In this document: in pieces, positions 23,819-34,866 of the stretch
How the letters are laid out: each line of letters starts with the position of its first letter
Position numbering within the stretch: position 1 is the first letter of the stretch
DNA from: Strobilurus pachycystidiatus
Taxonomy: Eukaryota; Basidiomycota; Agaricomycetes; Agaricales; Physalacriaceae
Assembly (NCBI GenBank): GCA_019915135.1
Contig: JAHLMK010000013.1
Span: 620,001 to 684,000, forward strand
DNA: 64,000 nucleotides
Direction: 5' to 3'
Position numbers and translations under genes: made by a program
Notes under the pieces: model-generated
Database searches by the model: none
Seen by the model: only the letters and a program-made list of their open reading frames with translations
What the model was told of the DNA's origin: nothing

Positions 23819-23826
23819 TGGAGAGG

Positions 23827-24153
23827 CACCTGAGAGACCCTTCAACCCTACCTAATTAGGTACCATACCCCAAAGGGGGTGTTGCAGCTAATTAGACTGA
23901 TTCCACTGCAAACCGCGGTCAGGCTGTAGCAAGCCTTTAAATCGAGTGATACCGCACTTGTAATATTGAAATCTGAGAGCGCCTGGGCGGGTGCTAGCCG
24001 TCATCCCGCACCCGCCCATTCACACGCCCATTCCCAATCCGGCAAGGACGTCGCCCGGACCTTGCCACGCTTCCGTCATCACTCGGATGACGGTCCGTCA
24101 TCAACCTCCTTCCTTATTCGGGTGCCCGCCCATCACCCCGCCTCCTTGCTCAC
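23827..24153 (+). repeat. Left terminal inverted repeat of KDZ element
   Basis: 327 bp, reverse-complementary to 34532-34858. It contains a perfect 14-bp palindrome TACCTAATTAGGTA about 25 bp from the tip and a near-palindrome GATGACGGTCCGTCATC further in, both possible transposase-binding sites. Confidence 0.95.
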
Positions 24154-24246
24154 CACTGGACTCAAACATGCATATAATACACACTGGAAAGAAACAAAAA
24201 GATACTACAGCTATTCTACAGTAAGGACAGGATATTTAATGTACAT

Positions 24247-27200
24247 TTAATCATCACTGACGACCTGGAGCAGCTCAAACCTGAGAGCCAGCTCTGCATC
24301 ATCGTCCTCAGCCTGTACCTCGGCGGCATCATCCTCAACATCGTCGTCGTCTTCCTGCGTGATAGCAACGGCAGGCCCAGTCGTCTCCGCCGGCGACTCC
24401 CCGCCTGTGTCCGCACCCGCGCCCGCGCCGTCGTCAACATTGCTCCACGGCCCCTTCAAAGGAATACCGGGCAAGATCGTTCCCGTAAAGCCAGCCATCC
24501 GTGAGACGTCGGCGAGTCGCGTGAGATGGCGGGCGTTGAAGCGCGCTCTCGACCGCCGGTGGATATCGATATGGAATGCGATGCGGCTATCTCTCGCGGC
24601 CCACTCAACTCGCTTCTCCTCCAGGTACTTGTCCTCGTCTCCTATGAAGGTGACGAGGCGACGGATCTCAACGTTCAGCCGCACGATTTCCTCCTCCGCC
24701 CTTGCGATTTTGAAGTACTGATCCATGAGCAGGCGGCCCCACGGACTGGCCCATGGCTTGTCGCGAATATCGGTGCGGGACTCTCGAAGCAGGTCAAAGT
24801 CCGCTAGGAATGCGTACTCGACGACCTGATTCCAGTGGAGCTCTGGCTTGGCGGGCTTGAAGGCGGCGGCGGCAACGTTGTATTTATCCAGGGCGGTGCT
24901 GATTGCATGAGAACGCGCCTTCAACGCGTTAGCAATGTGCTTCCGAAGCTTATAACCTGTACAATTGTCAGCGCCATGCCACGGTTAACTGTTATGCCCA
25001 CCTGTTTGAGACTGGTTCATCTTGGTCAGCTCGAATAGTCGGGCGATGACCAAGCTCTCTAACACATCCAACGCCCTTCGATACTTACGCCCCTTCAACA
25101 TCTCTGCAGTAACCGCCCACTCCTCGCTGTCAATCGTCCATCGCCTCTCAATGTTCAATCGTCGCTCCAGAATCTGTATGTCCTCGATGACTCGGTCCAA
25201 CTTTTCCCCAGCATGCCGCATCGCCGTTTCAACAGACCGCGTGTCATCCCGGCGATGTATAGTTTCTGGTGTGGTGTTCTTGAAGGCATTTCGGGCGCGT
25301 TCGAGTTGGGCGTTCAACTGGGCCATCAGCTCGAGCTTCTGGATGTACTCCATCTGGAGAGTCTCCTCCGCCGGCTCCCGCTTCAAATTGAGCAGGTGCG
25401 TTCTCTCCTCAGCGAGCCACGTCTTGAATACGGCGTAGTCGGCTATGCCCTTCGACTTCATCGACGCGTCCAACGTCGTCTTCCCAGCCAAGATGTCAAG
25501 GGCCTGGGCGTAGTTGTTGACAAGGAATTTACCTTGTAAAGATCAGTATATGCTTGCAAAGAGTAAGAATTAACCCCACTCAGTTGCTCGTAGGTGTCGA
25601 TATCTTTCCTACGGAAGACCTGGGCAATAAGTCGTCGACGATGAAACCTGCTGGCATATCGCGTGACGCCGGCCATGGCGTTTGTCCTTGAAAAGAACCG
25701 TTCGCATCCTTCCAAGTCCTCTAGCCCGACGCCTTCTCGATAGGTGGCTAGGTTGGCGGTCTGGCAGAGTCTGTTGTGCGCGTGGCCGTGGAAGGAGCCG
25801 ACCAGGGAGGTGTACTGCAATTCCTTGGCCAGTGGTCCTAGTGGGCTCCGACTTAACGTGGTGCCGAACTTGCATCCGATGTCGTAGCCGCCGCCCAATC
25901 GTCCATCTAAAGTCTCCAGAAGATAGTCGACGATGGCAAGCGGGTACTTTGCTCTGCATGGCGTTGTCAATAAATGGACGGAGCGTAGGTATTTGGACTC
26001 ACAGCTCTCCACTTCTTATCATATCGGCAGCGACCAAGACGAAGCCATGGCGACACAAGGCGAGAAAGATACCGGTCTCCTCGAAGATGCCCCACATGCG
26101 TGAAACGAGGGAGTTCTTCATATTCTCCCAACGATCCTCGCAATAGTTGGGATCTTCTCCTTCCTGTGGATCCGTCAGCGCTGGAAGAGAACGCCGTCAT
26201 GAAGGACATACCGGCGGCGGCCCAACGGCCAACTCGAGCAACTCCTTCGTCCACTTATCCACCCGTTCCCGGGATAGAAAATAGTCCAACCCATCGCCGC
26301 GCATGTCGTTTCGTTCGATGCTCTTGGCCGGGCCGTCATTGAGATTGCTGGGACGAATGGAGCGCAGAACGCGCTTAAGAGAGTCGTTGCCGTCCATGCA
26401 GAAGAGGATTTGATAGAGGAGTTCGGCCTCGCCTTCAAGCTTATACATGCAGCACGGGCAGGCGTGCTTGATGCGATAATTAACGTCGTCACGCAGCAGG
26501 GCCCTCTCGACGCGCTTGTCGATGGCCAAGAGGACTTCTTCGTACAGATCGTAGGCAATGGAGAATTGTTCAGCGAGAGTGGAACGGGGCGGGACCTGAT
26601 AAACGTAGGTTAGGAAGCAGAAGGCGTTGTAAACAAATCCTTACTTGCCAGGTGCATGTCGTTGAGAGATTTGACGAACGCCTCGATGGAGAGCTGCGGA
26701 CAGCGAAGACGCGTCACTCGGAAGAGTTCCAGAGTGCGAATGCTGATCGCGTATGTGTGATATAGCGCGGCGACGGGCATTAGGCCTTGACGGATGAGAG
26801 CAGCGGCGGTGGTGGCGTCAGACTCTTCCAAGGCGATGTTCACCTCCCTTCTCCAGAAGATATTGATGACGCCGATGGTATGAAGCCTGGGCCACCCGGC
26901 ATCTGGTGGCGAAGTCCCTGGAAAAGCAGTCGTGTTCCCCAAGCCCTCCTCGCCTCTTGATGAAGACCAGTTCATGTACGCCTCCACCAACTCCGGCAGC
27001 TGGGCGCGCAGAGCCTTGGTACGCATGTCCGTTCGATCTCGACGGGTGCGTTTGTCCTTCCCCTTGCCTTTCTTTCTTTTCGCCTGCTCTGCCCTGAAAG
27101 CTCGAGGTCAGCAACGCTTGGGGAAATATAAGAGAAACGCGCCTGTATTCCTCCTCAAGCTCATCAACCAACGAAGACAAGACTTGCTGAAACTCCCCAC

Positions 27201-27564
27201 CCGCGTTTGACATCCCCGCCATGGGCGCAGTGCCATCCAAGACATGGCCCAATCTATCAACGTCGTCTTCGTCGTCGTCGTCCATCATGAAATCGTTGTC
27301 GAGGTCATTCAAGTCCACAGGCTGCAAAGGACGCGGCGGTGCAGCATTGAGCTTTCGTAGCTGCTCGCGTTCTTGTCGTGTAAGTTGATGGGCGTAATGA
27401 ATTCTCTCCTGGATGTCGTCCTCGGTCGCAACACGAGCTTGTTCGGCTGTGAGAGTACGGCGCTGGAAGATTTTACCGGAGCGCGAGGAGGACCCAATAA
27501 CCGCGGCCTTGGGGTTTCTCTTCGCTTTAGGGAAGCGGCTCTTGACCGCCTTGATGCCAGGCAT
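24247..27564 (-). CDS. KDZ-superfamily transposase, apparently intact
   Basis: Seven exons: complement(24247-24956, 25002-25532, 25580-25953, 26003-26163, 26212-26595, 26649-27093, 27143-27564); 1,008 residues. Start MPGIKAVKS at 27564. Marks of the family, in order: a zinc-like HACPCCMYKLE (~335), CMDGNDSLKR (~356, first catalytic Asp), GETGIFLALCRHG-type block, YPLAIVDYLL, GYDIGCKF (~495, second Asp), GSFHGHAHNRLCQ, LEDLEGCERFFSRTNA (~550, Glu), then NNYAQALDIL and a coiled C-terminus with an acidic tail. The enzyme should cut and join the element's ends in the nucleus. Two introns appear to use GC donors: 26596-26648 (GCAAGT, well supported by frame) and 27094-27142 (GCGCGT, an alternative GT/AG pair is possible). 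Confidence 0.93.
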
Positions 27565-27835
27565 GTGTGAGTAAAGGCAGTGTGATCAGTCACTGTCACA
27601 CAAACCAACATTGATCCCAACCACCACCACTCAGGTATGTTCAGCCTTTTTCCACCCCGAAAGGCGCTCTTGACGCGTCAATGGCGGAGGATGGGGTGCA
27701 TCCGGTACTGGAATCACTCCCTGGGGCCATACCGGATCCCATCCTCTCAAGTTGATGTGCGCAGGGGCGCGCGTAAGGGCGCTTCAGCGCATGAACAGAT
27801 GCTAATCCCCATACTTTTCTCAACAGGACGCAACG
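27565..27835. promoter_or_regulatory. Shared divergent promoter, transposase and TET/JBP gene
   Basis: Only 271 bp separate the two start codons, which face away from each other, so both genes are probably expressed from this interval. A pyrimidine-rich ...CTCAACAG just before the dioxygenase ATG could be the 3' end of a leader intron. No clear TATA box is seen. Confidence 0.55.
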
Positions 27836-29349
27836 ATGACTTGGTTTGTACGCAAGGTGCGTGTTCTTCTTATGTTCAAGTACGTTCTGACCTGTGTTCA
27901 GCTGCGCGGCGGAAAGGAGTTTTCTGGATCGACGGCGCCGACGCAGAAGAGCGCAGAACGCGTCGAACCACTCAGAGCCGCGCCCACCTTCAAGTTGAAG
28001 GAATGCCTTCGGGTGGCGGAGGACGCCACCGTCGCCTACCTTCTCAGCCCGGCCGAACGGCGACGCAGCACCTCGCCTCAACCAAACCCCCCTCCGCCAC
28101 CGCCACGGCAACCTGCCAACCCCGATTCCCCCGCCACTTTGAAGCGCGAAGCCGTGGACGACGGTGACGACGGCGCCTTCAACTACCGCCATGCCAAACG
28201 CCGCCGCCAGCGCGACGAAGGCATTCAAAAACATGGCCACCTACCTTTAGCAGGGAGCACCGCCAGTCTCCTCGACGCCGCCAGCCATCCTCCCCTTTTG
28301 AACGACCTGGACATCGCGTCGCTTCCCGCTGCTCACGGCGGCTACACGGCCAAAGCACAGCGTGAGCTAGACATCGACTACGACAAGGAATACACCTTGG
28401 AAGAGCTGAAGGCAATGGGCTTTACGTACATTGCCTGGGATGGCATGTGAGCACTAAGTCAATCTTTCATTCTTTGCGCTCATTTGAACCCAGCACTCCT
28501 ATGCCTATCTACGACGAGAACGGCGTAATATTCGCCGTTCTTGCCGGCCGCCCGCGGGACGATGCGTACGTTCGCGACGCAGACCGCGCCTTCGAGGTCA
28601 TGGCGACTAGCGGCGACGACGAGCTGTGGACCAAAGACGAGCTTGAGAGGCACCGACGCGGCCTGTTCATTGCTCACAACGTTGGGGTCACAGCTGGGAA
28701 GGGGCAGCCGGGTCCGCTGCGACTCAGCACCGGCACCCACGCCATTCTGACCGAGCGTCTTATCAACAATCGCTCTGTTATCCGCCTTGCAACGTTTGCC
28801 AGCTCCGCATTCCAGCGATGGGCCCCCAACCTCTTTGCCTACTACAAAGAACATATGGACGATTTGCACAGCCACCGACCAGACCTAGGTCGCAACTTTT
28901 CCAAGTCGGTCTTTCCATGCGCCGCATTCAACCTATCGCGTCGCTCGTGGTCTTTCAAGCATCGCGACAGCGCGAATCTTCCATTTGGATGGTGCGCCAT
29001 CTGCGCCCTCGCCAAGAAAGGATTCCGCCCTCATCTCGGCGCACAAATCGTTCTGTGGGAGGCAAAGCTCATCATTGAATTCCCCCATGCCTCCACCATC
29101 CTCATACCCTCTGCGACCGTCACCCACTCCAACATCCCTCCGGCCGAAGGCGATGAACGGCTCTCTTTCACCCAATTCGCTGCCGGGGCGCTGTTTCGCT
29201 GGGTCGACAACGGCTTCCGCCTCGACAAGCAGCTCAAGAGCCGTGACCGCGCTGAGTTCAATCGTCTTGACGCTCTGAAGAGCACGCGTTGGGAGTACGG
29301 TCTCTCCTTGTATTCGAAGTTAGAAGATTTACTTGTAAAACAAGAATAG
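27836..29349 (+). CDS. TET/JBP family dioxygenase (5-methylcytosine oxidase-like)
   Basis: Three exons: 27836-27856, 27902-28446, 28494-29349; 473 residues. The first intron (45 bp, donor GTGCGT) is a multiple of three, so retention would also keep the frame. The C-terminal two-thirds is the mushroom TET/JBP fold: FKHRDSANLPFGWCAI supplies the metal-binding His-x-Asp (~345/347), ILIPSATVTHSNIP the distal His (~400), and ERLSFTQFAAGALFRW the Arg (~411) that should bind 2-oxoglutarate. The enzyme class uses Fe(II), O2 and 2-oxoglutarate to oxidise 5-methylcytosine in DNA. All active-site residues are present. N-terminal ~180 residues are charged and Pro-rich. Divergent neighbour of the transposase, inside the same inverted repeats, so it is cargo of the element. 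Confidence 0.92.
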
Positions 29350-29639
29350 ACAATTTTTATATCAACTTGACATCTATTTACCTAGTCCTTGAAATAAATC
29401 AATTGCCTACCTTTGAATGCATCTTTTACACCAGAATTCGGAGTGATTGAGGGTGTGCAAGTGTACATGGAATAAAAGTCTGATCAACAAAACTCGTAAA
29501 GCCAGTGTATGGCCAAATGATGATCTACGATCATACTTCGTTTCTTGCCTTCATCACACCAATCCGCCATTCTCCACGTCGCCAGACATTTTCATTGCTC
29601 AAATCACGTTCTTTATATTGTTTACTCTCTGCGTCTGCT

Positions 29640-30349
29640 ATGGTGCGGCCAGTAAAATATCATACGGAGGAGGAAAGGAAGGAGGCAGCAAGGGAGCGCA
29701 AAAGACGTTGGCATCACCGGTATGTGATGATCTACTGCTCAACTGGCCTCTGAAGTGTAATTCGTCAATTCTCAGACACCGTGAGGAGCAGCTGCAACGA
29801 CTGAAGGTTAACTACGAAACTCGAGCGGCTCGAGAGGGACGAGGTCGTCGATCACCAGCAGAAACGCCCATGACATCGTATTCCTTCTCCTCATTTCACC
29901 TCCCGAGGATTTCTTAAATAACTCACAGGGAAGTGGACGACTTCTCCCTTCTACGTCTCACTCGCCATGCACGCTTCATCGACGGGGAGATGCGAGCTCT
30001 CACCAACAATTCTTTCCCTCGGTACTGCGAACATTACTTCAGCATCTACAAGGACGGCCCTGCGGATAATGAAGACACCAATCCCGCTGGATCCAGGCGT
30101 AATGAGGTGTTGAAGGACACGTTGGACCAATGGAAAGAGGAACGTCGCAAAGTCAAGGAAGTGCTGGAAGAGGTATTGGCACTCGGCGGTCAGACAGAAC
30201 ACTCGAGCGTCGTCGAGAAGATTTACGCAAGGTTGGATCGCATCGTGGGGTATGTTGAAGATATGTACAGCTGGGCCATGAAACAGCGCGACGGAGTTGC
30301 TTACGCACGCTCCAAGCGTTGCCTACTTTACCAGCATCACACCTCATAG
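29640..30349 (+). CDS. KDZ accessory protein, basic N-terminus and helical core
   Basis: Three exons: 29640-29719, 29776-29877, 29929-30349; 200 residues, introns 56 and 51 bp with GTATGT and GTATTC donors. It starts MVRPVKYHTEEERKEAA and continues as a long, strongly basic helix (RKRRWHHRHREEQLQRL), resembling the basic part of a bZIP or a coiled coil. The rest is a mixed helical region with LDQWKEERRKVKEVLEEV. I recall similar YHTxEE-basic modules in many mushroom proteins but cannot name a family. It lies between the dioxygenase (same strand) and a convergent gene ending 142 bp away. A DNA-binding or partner role in transposition is a guess. Confidence 0.7.
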
Positions 30350-30491
30350 ATTCTTACAATACCTCTTTACCATCCGTTATCTCACCTGTTACCAGGACTT
30401 GTGATTTCTTACACAGTACTAAAATTCAACTTGGCACTGATATTGCAATTGTGAGGGTTTGTTACTTTGTACATAGGTTAAATAGAACAAT

Positions 30492-30777
30492 CTACGCATC
30501 TTGAGTAGTACACCGTACATATCCACGCTGTGTAGCAATCACAAAAAGACGGTCAGCCTCTACCTGTGTCCGGGCAGCATACGGGAGGCGGGGAATGAAG
30601 CCATTGGCGGCTACAACTGCGTCTTTGCCGTGATAAACTCCCGGTGCGGCCCCGACCAGAACAACCCAGTACACCTCCTCGAGTTCGGGCCCGGCTTCGT
30701 GATAGGCGGGGTACGGAAATGAAGAGTCGGAGTCGGACGGCGAGGGAGGACGCGGACCGTCGTCGTCGCCGTCATCA

Positions 30778-30813
<36 letters not shown>

Positions 30814-31977
30814 TCGCCGTTGTCATCGCCCCCGCCTCCCCCGCCAAAGTACCTCTCAATTCCCTCTCCATCGCTGCCCCGGGTCCATGTCTGTAGGTGG
30901 GCGTTGCCCGGACACCACGCTTCCTGGGCGGATTCGTTCCAACCCGGGCCAGAGGCCCAGCCGTTGAGGGAGCCGTAGGTCGGGCGGCCGAACTGCACGC
31001 CCTCTTGACGCCAGTCTTCAACGCGTAGGCGTTGTTCATCTTGTTGGCTGGGTTGGGGTACGGCGCCGGGAGTAGACGAGTCTTCAATAGGTTCCAAGTC
31101 AGGCATGCCGGTGATGGTAGGCGACGTCTGAGAACAAACGTCTGGCGCGACGGTGAAGGCAATCGATGACTGCGAGGAGACGTCGCTGTCAAATGAGAAC
31201 TCCGTCATGGAGGCTGGCATGGAGAAGTCGGATGGTCGAGTCGATGGTTTGACGATTGCTGGGGCCTGGGATACCGATGAGACCGTCGGAAGACGTCCAT
31301 CATCTTCGCTGTCGGATAGCTGGATGACGATGGTGTTCCGACGTTTAGTCGGCGAGAGCGAGCGGTGTCGTGGGCAGGGGGGAGGGGTGACCAGCGGTTG
31401 GAGGGGGTCTTGGCGTTGTTTTGTAGCCGGAAGTCCGTATTTGCGAACGACCTCGACGTCTCGCTGAGCCACCGCGGCGCCCTTCTTTTTGGGAGAGAGA
31501 CTGCGCGATTTTCGAGAAATGGGGGTCCGTTCAGCCCGCGGTCGTGCATAACTGCCCAAAGACTCGTCCTGGTCGGAGGCGTACACATCGCTGTCGCCGT
31601 AGTATGGCCGTTCTTATATGATAACAGGTTAACGGAGAACTTGGGCAGAAAAGCACTGGCGCACATACCCTTTTTCCGAGCTGGAACGTTGATGCGGCGC
31701 AGACCCTCGGTGAGCTCTTCAAGGGATGGTGCTAGCAGAGATCAGAGCATCAGCTGTCGATGGTATCGGGCAGATAGAGAACCACCCACGGATGCTCTGC
31801 TTGGAGGCTTGGGCCAGGAGAAATGGGCTTGTATAGGACTTTCCGGCGGCTATGCGACGACTGATGTCCTTGGTCAGTGTATCTGGGGTTGGCTTTGTGA
31901 GATAGCGGAATTTTCCTGTGCGTTGAATGCTTACCATACGTCTTATGGCCACGAAGACCGGTAGAGGGCGCAGACAT
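30492..31977 (-). CDS. KDZ accessory protein with viroplasmin/RNase H1-N-like C-terminus
   Basis: Four exons: complement(30492-31612, 31669-31731, 31790-31882, 31935-31977); 439 residues, starting MSAPSTGLRGHK. The frame is maintained through introns of 56, 58 and 52 bp. The middle is disordered: Arg/Ser-rich (SRKSRSLSPKKKG), Pro-rich, then a Gly/Asp run coded by GCC-type repeats at about 30770-30845. The last ~70 residues (YWVVLVGAAPGVY ... NGFIPRLPYA ... EADRLF) have the spacing of the small domain shared by caulimovirus viroplasmin and the N-terminus of RNase H1, which binds RNA-DNA hybrids. That match is from pattern memory. The gene is divergent from the next one. Confidence 0.7.
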
Positions 31978-32449
31978 GGTGAAAAATCTGGAATAAAGTG
32001 AGTAAAAATTGTGCGTAGTATGGTTGGGCGTACAGATTGGCGTCAAGGCAGTGGGAGTCAAGCAATGCCCCGGGGATGTTGAGATACAGGGTTCACCCTC
32101 CTGAGTCCTAGACCCTGAAATCTGGCTATTCCATGGAAAAATGTATCATGCGTATGGCGCGGCATCTGGCGGCATTGACGGATGCACAGTAGGAAAGTGT
32201 ACGCGTTGAGAGACGCGAGATGTAGCTGGTGGTTGTGGGTTGGTTGTGGGAAAAGGGAGAGAGGCCGGCGCTTGGATTACCAAAAGTAGTAGTGCAGTTT
32301 TGTGCACGCTCTCATCTTCACCGTTGTTTTCTCCACCACTCCCCTCTCTTCAACCTCTGACGCGACGCGCCTCACCCTGCATTTGCAAACAATCCACGCA
32401 AGTATGTTTATTTCCAGTAGCGTGCTCACCAAGCTGACGAACTCCCACC
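31978..32449. promoter_or_regulatory. Shared divergent promoter of two KDZ accessory genes
   Basis: 472 bp between opposing start codons, repeating the head-to-head arrangement of the transposase/dioxygenase pair. No other coding frame is apparent in it. Confidence 0.5.
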
Positions 32450-34430
32450 ATGTCTAGCCCAGCAAGCAGCACGCCCTTCACCGCCTTCAGCAGCGGGCCC
32501 TTGCCTAACGGCAACCCCGAAACACCCTCGCTCCTCCATTCTGCAAGCGCGGTCGGAAATTCTGCCGCCGTCAATGTCAATGCCGCTGGAGACCTGACCG
32601 GCCTTGTGCCGTCAATTGCCCAGCATACAACTTTTGCTCAGAGGAATCCTCACAGAGATGTCCAAGATCCCCTGCCCAAGGAAGATCGCTACAAGGCGTC
32701 CACCGACAAGGAAGCCCTACTACGTCGTCAAAACAGGAAGGACAAGGCCGAGGCGCTCACTGCAGCCATCACAAAGTATCAGGCAGAGTGCGATGAGAAG
32801 ATGCAGGCCATTGCGGACGAGCACAGCGTCTCATACGACTCTGTCCGGCAGCGTTGCGTTCAGACTTCGGCCTTCAAGAAAGAGCGTGCTCCCAACCTCG
32901 CCAACGCGATCACGCATGCGCGTTCCAAGGAGCTCAATAAAGGTGTGTCTAGTCTACCATATTTGTTTCACGAGACTTCAATTGTTCTTAGATTTGCCGA
33001 AAGGAGAGCGCTTACGCCTTCAGGAGATTGTCGCCAAGATTTCGGACGAGGATACGACCGAGTTGACAAAGGAGGACAAAGAGGAGCTGCTCGACAATTT
33101 AATGCAGCATAGAGCCCTCAAGAAAACCGGCGCACGCGCCAACAACAGAGCAGCTGGGATGGACTGCGTGGCAACGGTGGGGTTCATGCAGACAGAGGTG
33201 CGTTGTTGTTATCTTGATAGTTGTGAGTCGGCAGTACTGATTTCTGACTCACAGATGCAACGATTCCATGCTCGGCATGGCACTTGGGGCTTTGCATTCT
33301 TTGCCCCCGCTAACGTTCACGACACGTTTGTCCCAACCGTCATCGAGACTCCCGGGGCGCTTGACTTTGTGCCGGCGGTCCTTGGGAAAACGGTCTACGA
33401 GATGCTGAATTGGTTCAAGAACTACGCTGTCTTGGCCAGCTCCAGTACGTCGTCATTCCTACTTCCCCGTCCCATTCTTCTCATCTCTGACGTTCAACCA
33501 TTGGCAGCATGTATTTCGCTCAAGGACACCCGTACTCGACTCAGGAAAGAGCTCACAGATACTATAACTATGGGACTTGGTGCGTCTTGATGTGATCTTG
33601 AGCGCGCCCGTACTTATGTGCCCTGTTCAGCTCGCGCAGTCAACAAACCCTCCGTCAAGATGTCCTATGAGCGCTACGAGGTGGAGGTCGTCGTCAGATA
33701 TCGCGCCGAAATCGTGGGTTGGCCGGAAGATATCAAATTTCAACCTGGCGGAACTATGACTCCGGAAGAGCTTCGTCGAATGGTCGATCTCTGGCGCGCC
33801 GGTGTTTGTCGGTGGATCATGTTGAGCAAGACCGACCTTGACAAGCGGGAGGCAGAGATTGCGAAACGTGTCAAGGACGGCGACCTGAAGAAAGGTCGGG
33901 CTACCAGGAGCGATAAGGGAGTCAAGCGGGGACCTAGGGCCACCAAGGACAAGGAGGATGATATCGACGGCGACGCTTCGGATAGGGATATCGACGCCGC
34001 CGACGCGAGGCCGAAGAAACGCGCCAAAACCTCCAAGCGGACGCCCGATGAAGTGGAGGCCGAGAAGCAGGCGAAGAGGGCAAAGAAAGACGCCGCAGAG
34101 AAGAAGAAGGCCGAGGCGGCGAAGAAGAGCAGTGGGACGAAGGCGACGAAAAAGGCGGCGGCGCGGACTGCGGCAAAGAAGGCGCCGGCGACTGCCAGCG
34201 GCCGAGCTGCAAAGGCGGCGGCGCTGAGTAAAACGCTCCCGCCCAAGAGCAAGGAGTTTGTCGATAGCGATGTTGACGAGAGCGACGACGACAACGACGA
34301 GAGCGACGACAACGGGAACATGTCCGATGCATACGCTCCCACCTCTGCCTCTGCGCCCGCCGCCGCCGCCGCCAATGAGCATGCTGATGATGATGAAGAG
34401 GAGGAAATAGATGAATTAGACGATGATTAG
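32450..34430 (+). CDS. KDZ accessory protein, HTH-like with basic then acidic tail
   Basis: Five exons: 32450-32942, 32992-33197, 33255-33444, 33508-33579, 33631-34430; 586 residues; introns 49-63 bp, all frame-preserving. Residues ~100-150 (DEKMQAIADEHSVSYDSVRQ...) look like a psq/CENP-B-type helix-turn-helix. A compact central domain follows (HGTWGFAFFAPANVHDTFVP, TVYEMLNWFKNY). The C-terminal third is Lys/Ala-rich (EKKKAEAAKKSSGTKATKKA), like linker histone tails, and the final 60 residues are Asp/Glu-rich. This suggests a chromatin- or DNA-binding protein. Similar proteins near KDZ transposases in mushroom genomes are likely but unchecked. Ends 101 bp before the right inverted repeat. Confidence 0.75.
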
Positions 34431-34531
34431 GTACTACATGGACACCATTATACACTTAGAAAACTTCTTTTCTTTGTATTATATTTTGTTTAATTTAACT
34501 ACCAAAATTCTGTTGATTTTGCAAGTGGGCA

Positions 34532-34858
34532 GTGAGCAAGGAGGCGGGGTGATGGGCGGGCACCCGAATAAGGAAGGAGGTTGATGACGGACCGTCATCC
34601 GAGTGATGACGGAAGCGTGGCAAGGTCCGGGCGACGTCCTTGCCGGATTGGGAATGGGCGTGTGAATGGGCGGGTGCGGGATGACGGCTAGCACCCGCCC
34701 AGGCGCTCTCAGATTTCAATATTACAAGTGCGGTATCACTCGATTTAAAGGCTTGCTACAGCCTGACCGCGGTTTGCAGTGGAATCAGTCTAATTAGCTG
34801 CAACACCCCCTTTGGGGTATGGTACCTAATTAGGTAGGGTTGAAGGGTCTCTCAGGTG
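34532..34858 (-). repeat. Right terminal inverted repeat of KDZ element
   Basis: 327 bp, reverse complement of 23827-24153, followed at once by the target duplication TGGAGAGG (34859-34866). Confidence 0.95.
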
Positions 34859-34866
34859 TGGAGAGG

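Follow-up and report, generated by a model that had tools for sequence, protein, structure and literature searches.

A bounded five-gene KDZ transposon with a constrained TET/JBP-like dioxygenase in Strobilurus pachycystidiatus

The DNA analysed here, hereafter the window, is a 64-kb stretch of the Strobilurus pachycystidiatus genome (assembly GCA_019915135.1, 51.8 Mb in 61 contigs; contig JAHLMK010000013.1, our C13, positions 620,001 to 684,000), and it contains an 11,032-bp transposon (window positions 23827-34858) of the KDZ group, a name reportedly coined by Iyer in 2014. The element has matching inverted ends, an exact target duplication and five open genes, among them a transposase and, head-to-head with it, a 2-oxoglutarate (2OG)-Fe(II) dioxygenase. 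The order and orientation of all five genes are identical in two further elements of the same genome, and purifying selection has acted on transposase and dioxygenase alike. We favor, with moderate confidence, the reading that this is an autonomous cut-and-paste transposon whose dioxygenase oxidizes 5-methylcytosine (5mC) and thereby relieves silencing, a reading in which the chemistry, the target and the mobility are what we infer. The transposase would bind repeated sites in the 327-bp arms, excise the element and reinsert it with an 8-bp duplication, and the dioxygenase, expressed from a promoter region common to the transposase, would oxidize methylated cytosine within the element and possibly beyond it. 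Oxidation of 5mC would then lessen host silencing, such that the transposase would stay expressed.

The structural part of the initial annotation, a complete and bounded KDZ element with open genes, is borne out by the target-site duplications (TSDs), the terminal inverted repeats (TIRs), the spliced gene models and the transposase family match. The 8-bp duplication it had described, TGGAGAGG, is exact, occupying positions 23819-23826 on the left and 34859-34866 on the right. Its 327-bp inverted ends, recovered by an inverted-repeat search at 23827-24153 (plus strand, starting CACCTGAGAG) and 34532-34858 (minus strand), are likewise without a difference, as all 327 of 327 aligned positions are complementary. 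This pairing is not a product of chance, because the second longest of the 27 inverted pairs present in 12.6 kb measures only 39 nt and is 72% identical. The left arm contains the motif A(C/G)CTAATTAG twice, which is possibly a transposase-binding site. Gene models were built on splice signals and conservation rather than on RNA. The transposase lies on the minus strand (24247-27564) in seven exons (27564-27143, 27093-26649, 26595-26212, 26163-26003, 25953-25580, 25532-25002 and 24956-24247). The 1,008-residue model that had been put forward is confirmed, in that the reading frame is open once six introns are removed and the product matches the Pfam family PF18758 (KDZ) over model positions 1-217 of 217 (E = 7.5e-74). 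Two of the introns (27142-27094 and 26648-26596) are GC-AG, the second of these, intron 2, being GT-AG at the same position in one of the two related copies (C2). The start codons of the transposase and dioxygenase diverge from a 271-bp gap (27565-27835), which is probably a two-way promoter. The dioxygenase (plus strand, 27836-29349) has 473 residues in three exons (27836-27856, 27902-28446 and 28494-29349), with its catalytic core in exon 3 and the HRD (HxD), distal His and Arg motifs all kept.

Comparison of the window element with the copies on contigs C1 and C2 shows that the dioxygenase has been constrained about as strongly as the transposase, and strongly in both cases. Ratios of nonsynonymous to synonymous divergence (dN/dS, Nei-Gojobori), which are rough on account of saturated dS, were 0.091 (995 codons) and 0.087 (984 codons) for the transposase and 0.097 (462 codons) and 0.120 (460 codons) for the dioxygenase, against C1 and C2, respectively, with fourfold-site differences of 64% and 67% in the two genes. 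Values near 0.1 despite saturated synonymous sites indicate that the dioxygenase is a maintained working part of the element. The notion that it is instead an idle passenger gene, for which we found no supporting point, is barely credible; dN/dS of 0.10-0.12 over saturated synonymous divergence and the retention of the catalytic residues both speak against it, and we reject it on the grounds of this constraint.

The statement that KDZ transposons and TET/JBP genes are linked and expanded in mushrooms holds for this genome. Merging 87 dioxygenase matches gave 64 loci, and for 22 of these one of 120 typed KDZ matches is no more than 10 kb away; since the typed set comprises 120 of 174 KDZ matches, without rows that resembled the other half of a listed gene and rows outside the listing, this count is a lower bound. 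An even spread would predict about 3 loci (4.7% of the genome; binomial probability about 8e-14), although clustering of transposons places the true expectation above that figure. Reciprocally, a dioxygenase locus lies no more than 10 kb from 25 of the 120 KDZ matches. The two genes share a strand in 16 of the 22 pairs, diverge in 4 and converge in 2; the divergent pairs constitute the clade of the window element, to which a search with the full transposase adds a fifth (C1:17-20 kb). This pair and another at C2:1216-1220 kb are head-to-head relatives in addition to the three full elements. Among the dioxygenase loci, a tight group of seven on six contigs (L018, L019, L020, L021, L023, L024 and L025; C9, C16, C13, C1, C28 and C6) lies more than 10 kb from any typed KDZ match and may ride another kind of element; the cores of L020 and L021 are identical on different contigs. 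Two other pairs of identical cores, C6:1184364/C40:2812 (L031, L032) and C1:6296598/C1:6306776 (L029, L030), point either to recent copying or to duplication in the assembly.

Of 30 loci that we fetched (three overlapping others and one being the window gene), 28 keep the His, Asp, distal His and Arg and have no stop in the core. A genome with 64 loci and so many active-looking paralogues would fit an enzyme that acted in trans without choosing its target, the element profiting from nucleus-wide loosening of silencing rather than from its own demethylation, and published work places oxidized methylcytosine on retrotransposons as well in Coprinopsis and Laccaria (PMC12730594, PMC8889193). We nevertheless judge this unlikely, as purifying selection on the gene in each element suggests that the bearer benefits. 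A different role, in which the dioxygenase is a step of transposition and alters a base of the arms or of the target site, the altered base marking the DNA for the transposase or timing excision, would account for the similar constraint on the two enzymes and for their head-to-head arrangement in this clade. However, 95 of the 120 KDZ matches lie more than 10 kb from any listed dioxygenase locus, and mobile KDZ elements of Cryptococcus are described, in the excerpts of that report, with transposase domains and without mention of a dioxygenase (PMC12810828), which makes this role highly unlikely. Relief of silencing through 5mC oxidation on the element, and perhaps beyond it, remains the reading that we carry forward, and self-demethylation by the window element is plausible.

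The key residues of the dioxygenase set it apart from two mushroom types described in one published survey. Among 8000 scored candidates, 122 public relatives were found at E <= 0.001; the named ones among the matches listed are what we take to be Agaricomycetes, with Hymenopellis radicata among the closest. A tree built from 97 cores joins the window dioxygenase to four copies from its own genome and to three sequences from elsewhere, that of H. radicata among them (98/91). In 76 aligned rows chosen from the relatives, with denominators giving the rows that have a letter at the position, the catalytic residues are nearly invariant (His 72/72, Asp 71/72, distal His 74/75, Arg 70/71), as are Asn at H+5 (71/72), Cys at H+11 (73/73) and Phe or Tyr at R+6 (71/72). 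According to PMC11040006, the H+5 residue is Asn1387 in hTet2, Asp234 in NgTet1, Asp350 in CMD1 and Gly331 in CcTET; hTet2 Asn1387 and its equivalents in NgTet1 and CMD1 bind N4 of 5mC, and Asp337 of CcTET compensates for Gly331. In the survey of transposon-borne enzymes by Kojima (Kojima 2025, PMC12730594), the CcTET-like AG type is marked by Gly or Ser at H+5 together with Asp at H+11, and the PE type by HxE. Judged by these positions, the window family is neither, having Asn and Cys where the AG type has Gly/Ser and Asp, and HxD in place of HxE. As for the third type, PU, no genus of its rust hosts was noticed among the named proteins listed (best 120 of 122 and 120 of 163).

Kinship of this family to TET/JBP enzymes appears remote, and it is profile comparison that favors it. 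At E <= 0.01, Tet_JBP is the most-matched Pfam family, matching 11 of 76 family members (best 1.3e-4) compared with 3 of 76 for 2OG-FeII_Oxy_3. Genome-wide, loci of the dioxygenase family overlap 7 of the 13 Tet_JBP matches but none of the 5 PF13640 or the 3 PF20515 matches. The same genome contains a second, CcTET-related dioxygenase group, L075 and L077, the former of which finds CcTET at 3.1e-6. Aligned to this group by hhalign, the window family scored E = 1e-6 with a probability of 91, as compared with E = 5.8e-4 and a probability of 29 for a control of four PF13640 proteins; other controls gave 1.2 (L076) and a probability of 0.3 (PF20515 proteins). With L076 included, the scores were less favorable (E = 8.5e-5, probability 60; with a long alignment, E = 0.0022, probability 13). 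We reject PF20515 as the home of the enzyme, given that none of its three genome matches overlaps the family and that its hhalign probability is so low. A prolyl-hydroxylase-like 2OG-Fe(II) oxygenase acting on protein or RNA rather than on DNA bases is the competing assignment, and four relatives (P0089, P0111, P0160 and P0168) do bear the UniRef name 'Prolyl 4-hydroxylase alp...', in keeping with the minority of 2OG-FeII_Oxy_3 matches. Two others (P0133 and P0143) carry the name '2OGFeDO JBP1/TET oxyge...', and these names, the predominance of Tet_JBP matches, the outcome of the hhalign control and the Asn at H+5 together make the prolyl-hydroxylase assignment distinctly unlikely.

Several observations nonetheless weigh against a TET/JBP enzyme that acts for its own transposon. 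The window dioxygenase has no Pfam match at E <= 1, and at that threshold the two families are nearly even among the relatives (Tet_JBP 16/46, 2OG-FeII_Oxy_3 14/46). The 13 Tet_JBP matches in the genome all fall short of the curated cut-off, and the window gene is not one of them. Neither the dioxygenase sequence nor two family profiles matched a solved TET structure in the PDB set, and the family profile misses CcTET there even though CcTET is included. At R+8, the family has mostly Ala (49/73 rows), whereas PMC11040006 gives His for hTet2 and NgTet1 and Arg for CcTET. Outside the enzyme itself, 42 of the 64 dioxygenase loci are farther than 10 kb from any typed KDZ match, one of these having a transposase piece by another query. 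There is also no CpG depletion in the three copies, and hence no methylation footprint: the observed-to-expected CpG ratio is 1.07 in the window element (flanks, 0.92 and 0.93) and 1.07 and 1.11 in the others. Such depletion need not be expected, and we set it aside as a sign of methylation that does not discriminate, neither supporting nor refuting the mechanism. What the initial annotation had called a TET/JBP model keeps its 473 residues, HxD, distal His and Arg, but its kinship to TET/JBP is only a remote one. We tentatively propose, as a possibility to be taken seriously, that the family is a fourth transposon-borne TET/JBP-like lineage, in which a TET2-like Asn replaces the Gly of CcTET and which would have been carried through mushrooms by two or more KDZ architectures, head-to-head in this clade and same-strand in others. 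The element also points to a large mushroom dioxygenase family that sequence searches starting from CcTET would probably miss.

The identical ends do not establish that the insertion is recent, as had been supposed. A search of the assembly with the end sequences found three elements only, the window element, C1:165776-180952 and C2:715106-726413. The C1 copy is bounded by its own exact TSD, TCGGCTTT, sits inside an apparent Gypsy-type retroelement and carries some 3.9 kb of additional DNA within one of the five genes (gene U); in the C2 copy, the left end lacks its outermost bases. Of the two kinds of support to which the initial annotation had looked, other copies and empty sites, this assembly offers the first in these two diverged family members but not the second: no near-identical copy of the window element and no empty insertion site were found in it, each flank of the element being matched once. 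Within elements, the arms are 100% (window, 327 columns), 98.8% (C1, 325) and 96.3% (C2, 268) identical, with nine of the ten C2 differences falling in the broken tip; by BLAST, the C1 and C2 values are 98.5% and 96.0%. Between the three elements, arm identity is 61-74%. The two ends of a cut-and-paste element are not copied from a single template, so their identity is no clock, and we reject it as one. Because the arms are alike within elements but only 61-74% identical between them, some process must keep the ends of each element alike; both ends of each element evolve in concert, for example via gene conversion. Identity of inverted ends should therefore not be used to date cut-and-paste elements. 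A young insertion would agree with the exact TSD and the five open genes, which do not prove it. The five arm differences outside the broken tip (four in C1, L003/L004; one in the C2 interior, L005/L006) are all C/T when read from outer to inner arm, too few to conclude from, and BLAST on slightly longer arms gives a fifth difference in C1 and gaps in C2.

The two-gene account with which the analysis began was right about the transposase and dioxygenase but incomplete, as three genes of unassigned function, S, U and V, also belong to the element. Gene S (plus strand, 29640-30349) encodes 200 residues in three exons. Gene U (minus strand, 30492-31977) encodes 439 residues in four exons, with a Gly/Asp-rich tract that is encoded by a GCC-rich simple repeat (30765-30850). 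Gene V (plus strand, 32450-34430) encodes 586 residues in five exons, with a basic stretch and an acidic C-terminus. A Pfam scan of the transposase, dioxygenase, S and V models and the main exon of U gave no meaningful match for any of these apart from the transposase. Relative to C1 and C2, dN/dS is 0.115 and 0.093 for U and 0.172 and 0.177 for V; for S it is 0.314, the second comparison not being computable. In searches of the genome, gene S was matched in the three full elements only and gene V in these and four other places; of 8000 candidates scored against V, just three qualify as public relatives at E <= 0.001. Around the element, inspection by eye of open frames places an ABC-type gene as the left-hand neighbor and a proteasome-subunit-like gene some 5 kb away on the right-hand side, with no neighboring gene visibly interrupted by the insertion.

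The general kind of element described here is already known, both as TET-carrying fungal transposons and as mobile, long-ended KDZ elements. The Kojima survey reports complete TET-carrying fungal transposons together with the same anti-silencing proposal (Kojima 2025, PMC12730594). Like the TET+ Kyakuja elements described there, the window element combines a KDZ transposase with a TET/JBP-like dioxygenase in Agaricomycetes and has CA..TG ends. Kyakuja-1_LB and -2_LB of L. bicolor, however, have 7-bp TSDs and no TIRs, and the 8-bp TSD and 327-bp TIRs of the window element depart from both features; the Kyakuja enzyme is moreover of the AG type (Gly/Ser at H+5, Asp at H+11), unlike the window enzyme with Asn and Cys. 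In its 8-bp TSD, KDZ transposase and dioxygenase cargo, the element resembles the TET+ Zisupton and Dileera of the same survey, and its TSD fits the two alike. The Agaricales TET+ Zisupton is reported from Agaricus bisporus and has enzymes of the PE type (HxE), unlike the window enzyme, and Dileera is reported from rusts and has a PU-type enzyme. In size, long TIRs and TSD, the element resembles KDZ1, KDZ2 and KDZ3 of Cryptococcus neoformans, which measure about 11, 9.2 and 10 kb, have TIRs of 241, 139 and 169 bp and TSDs of 8 bp (KDZ1) or 4-8 bp (KDZ2 and KDZ3), and have been demonstrated to move; the excerpted report mentions no dioxygenase in them (PMC12810828). The enzyme shares the 2OG-Fe(II) core, HxD, distal His and Arg with CcTET of Coprinopsis cinerea, but the pocket residues of its family differ and the family profiles do not find CcTET. 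What appears new, as far as literature searches show, is that this enzyme subtype is combined with a long-ended, five-gene KDZ element that makes an 8-bp TSD, although Iyer 2014 may already include the subtype. A bounded and fully open element with two diverged relatives in the same genome provides natural comparisons for testing self-demethylation by transposons.

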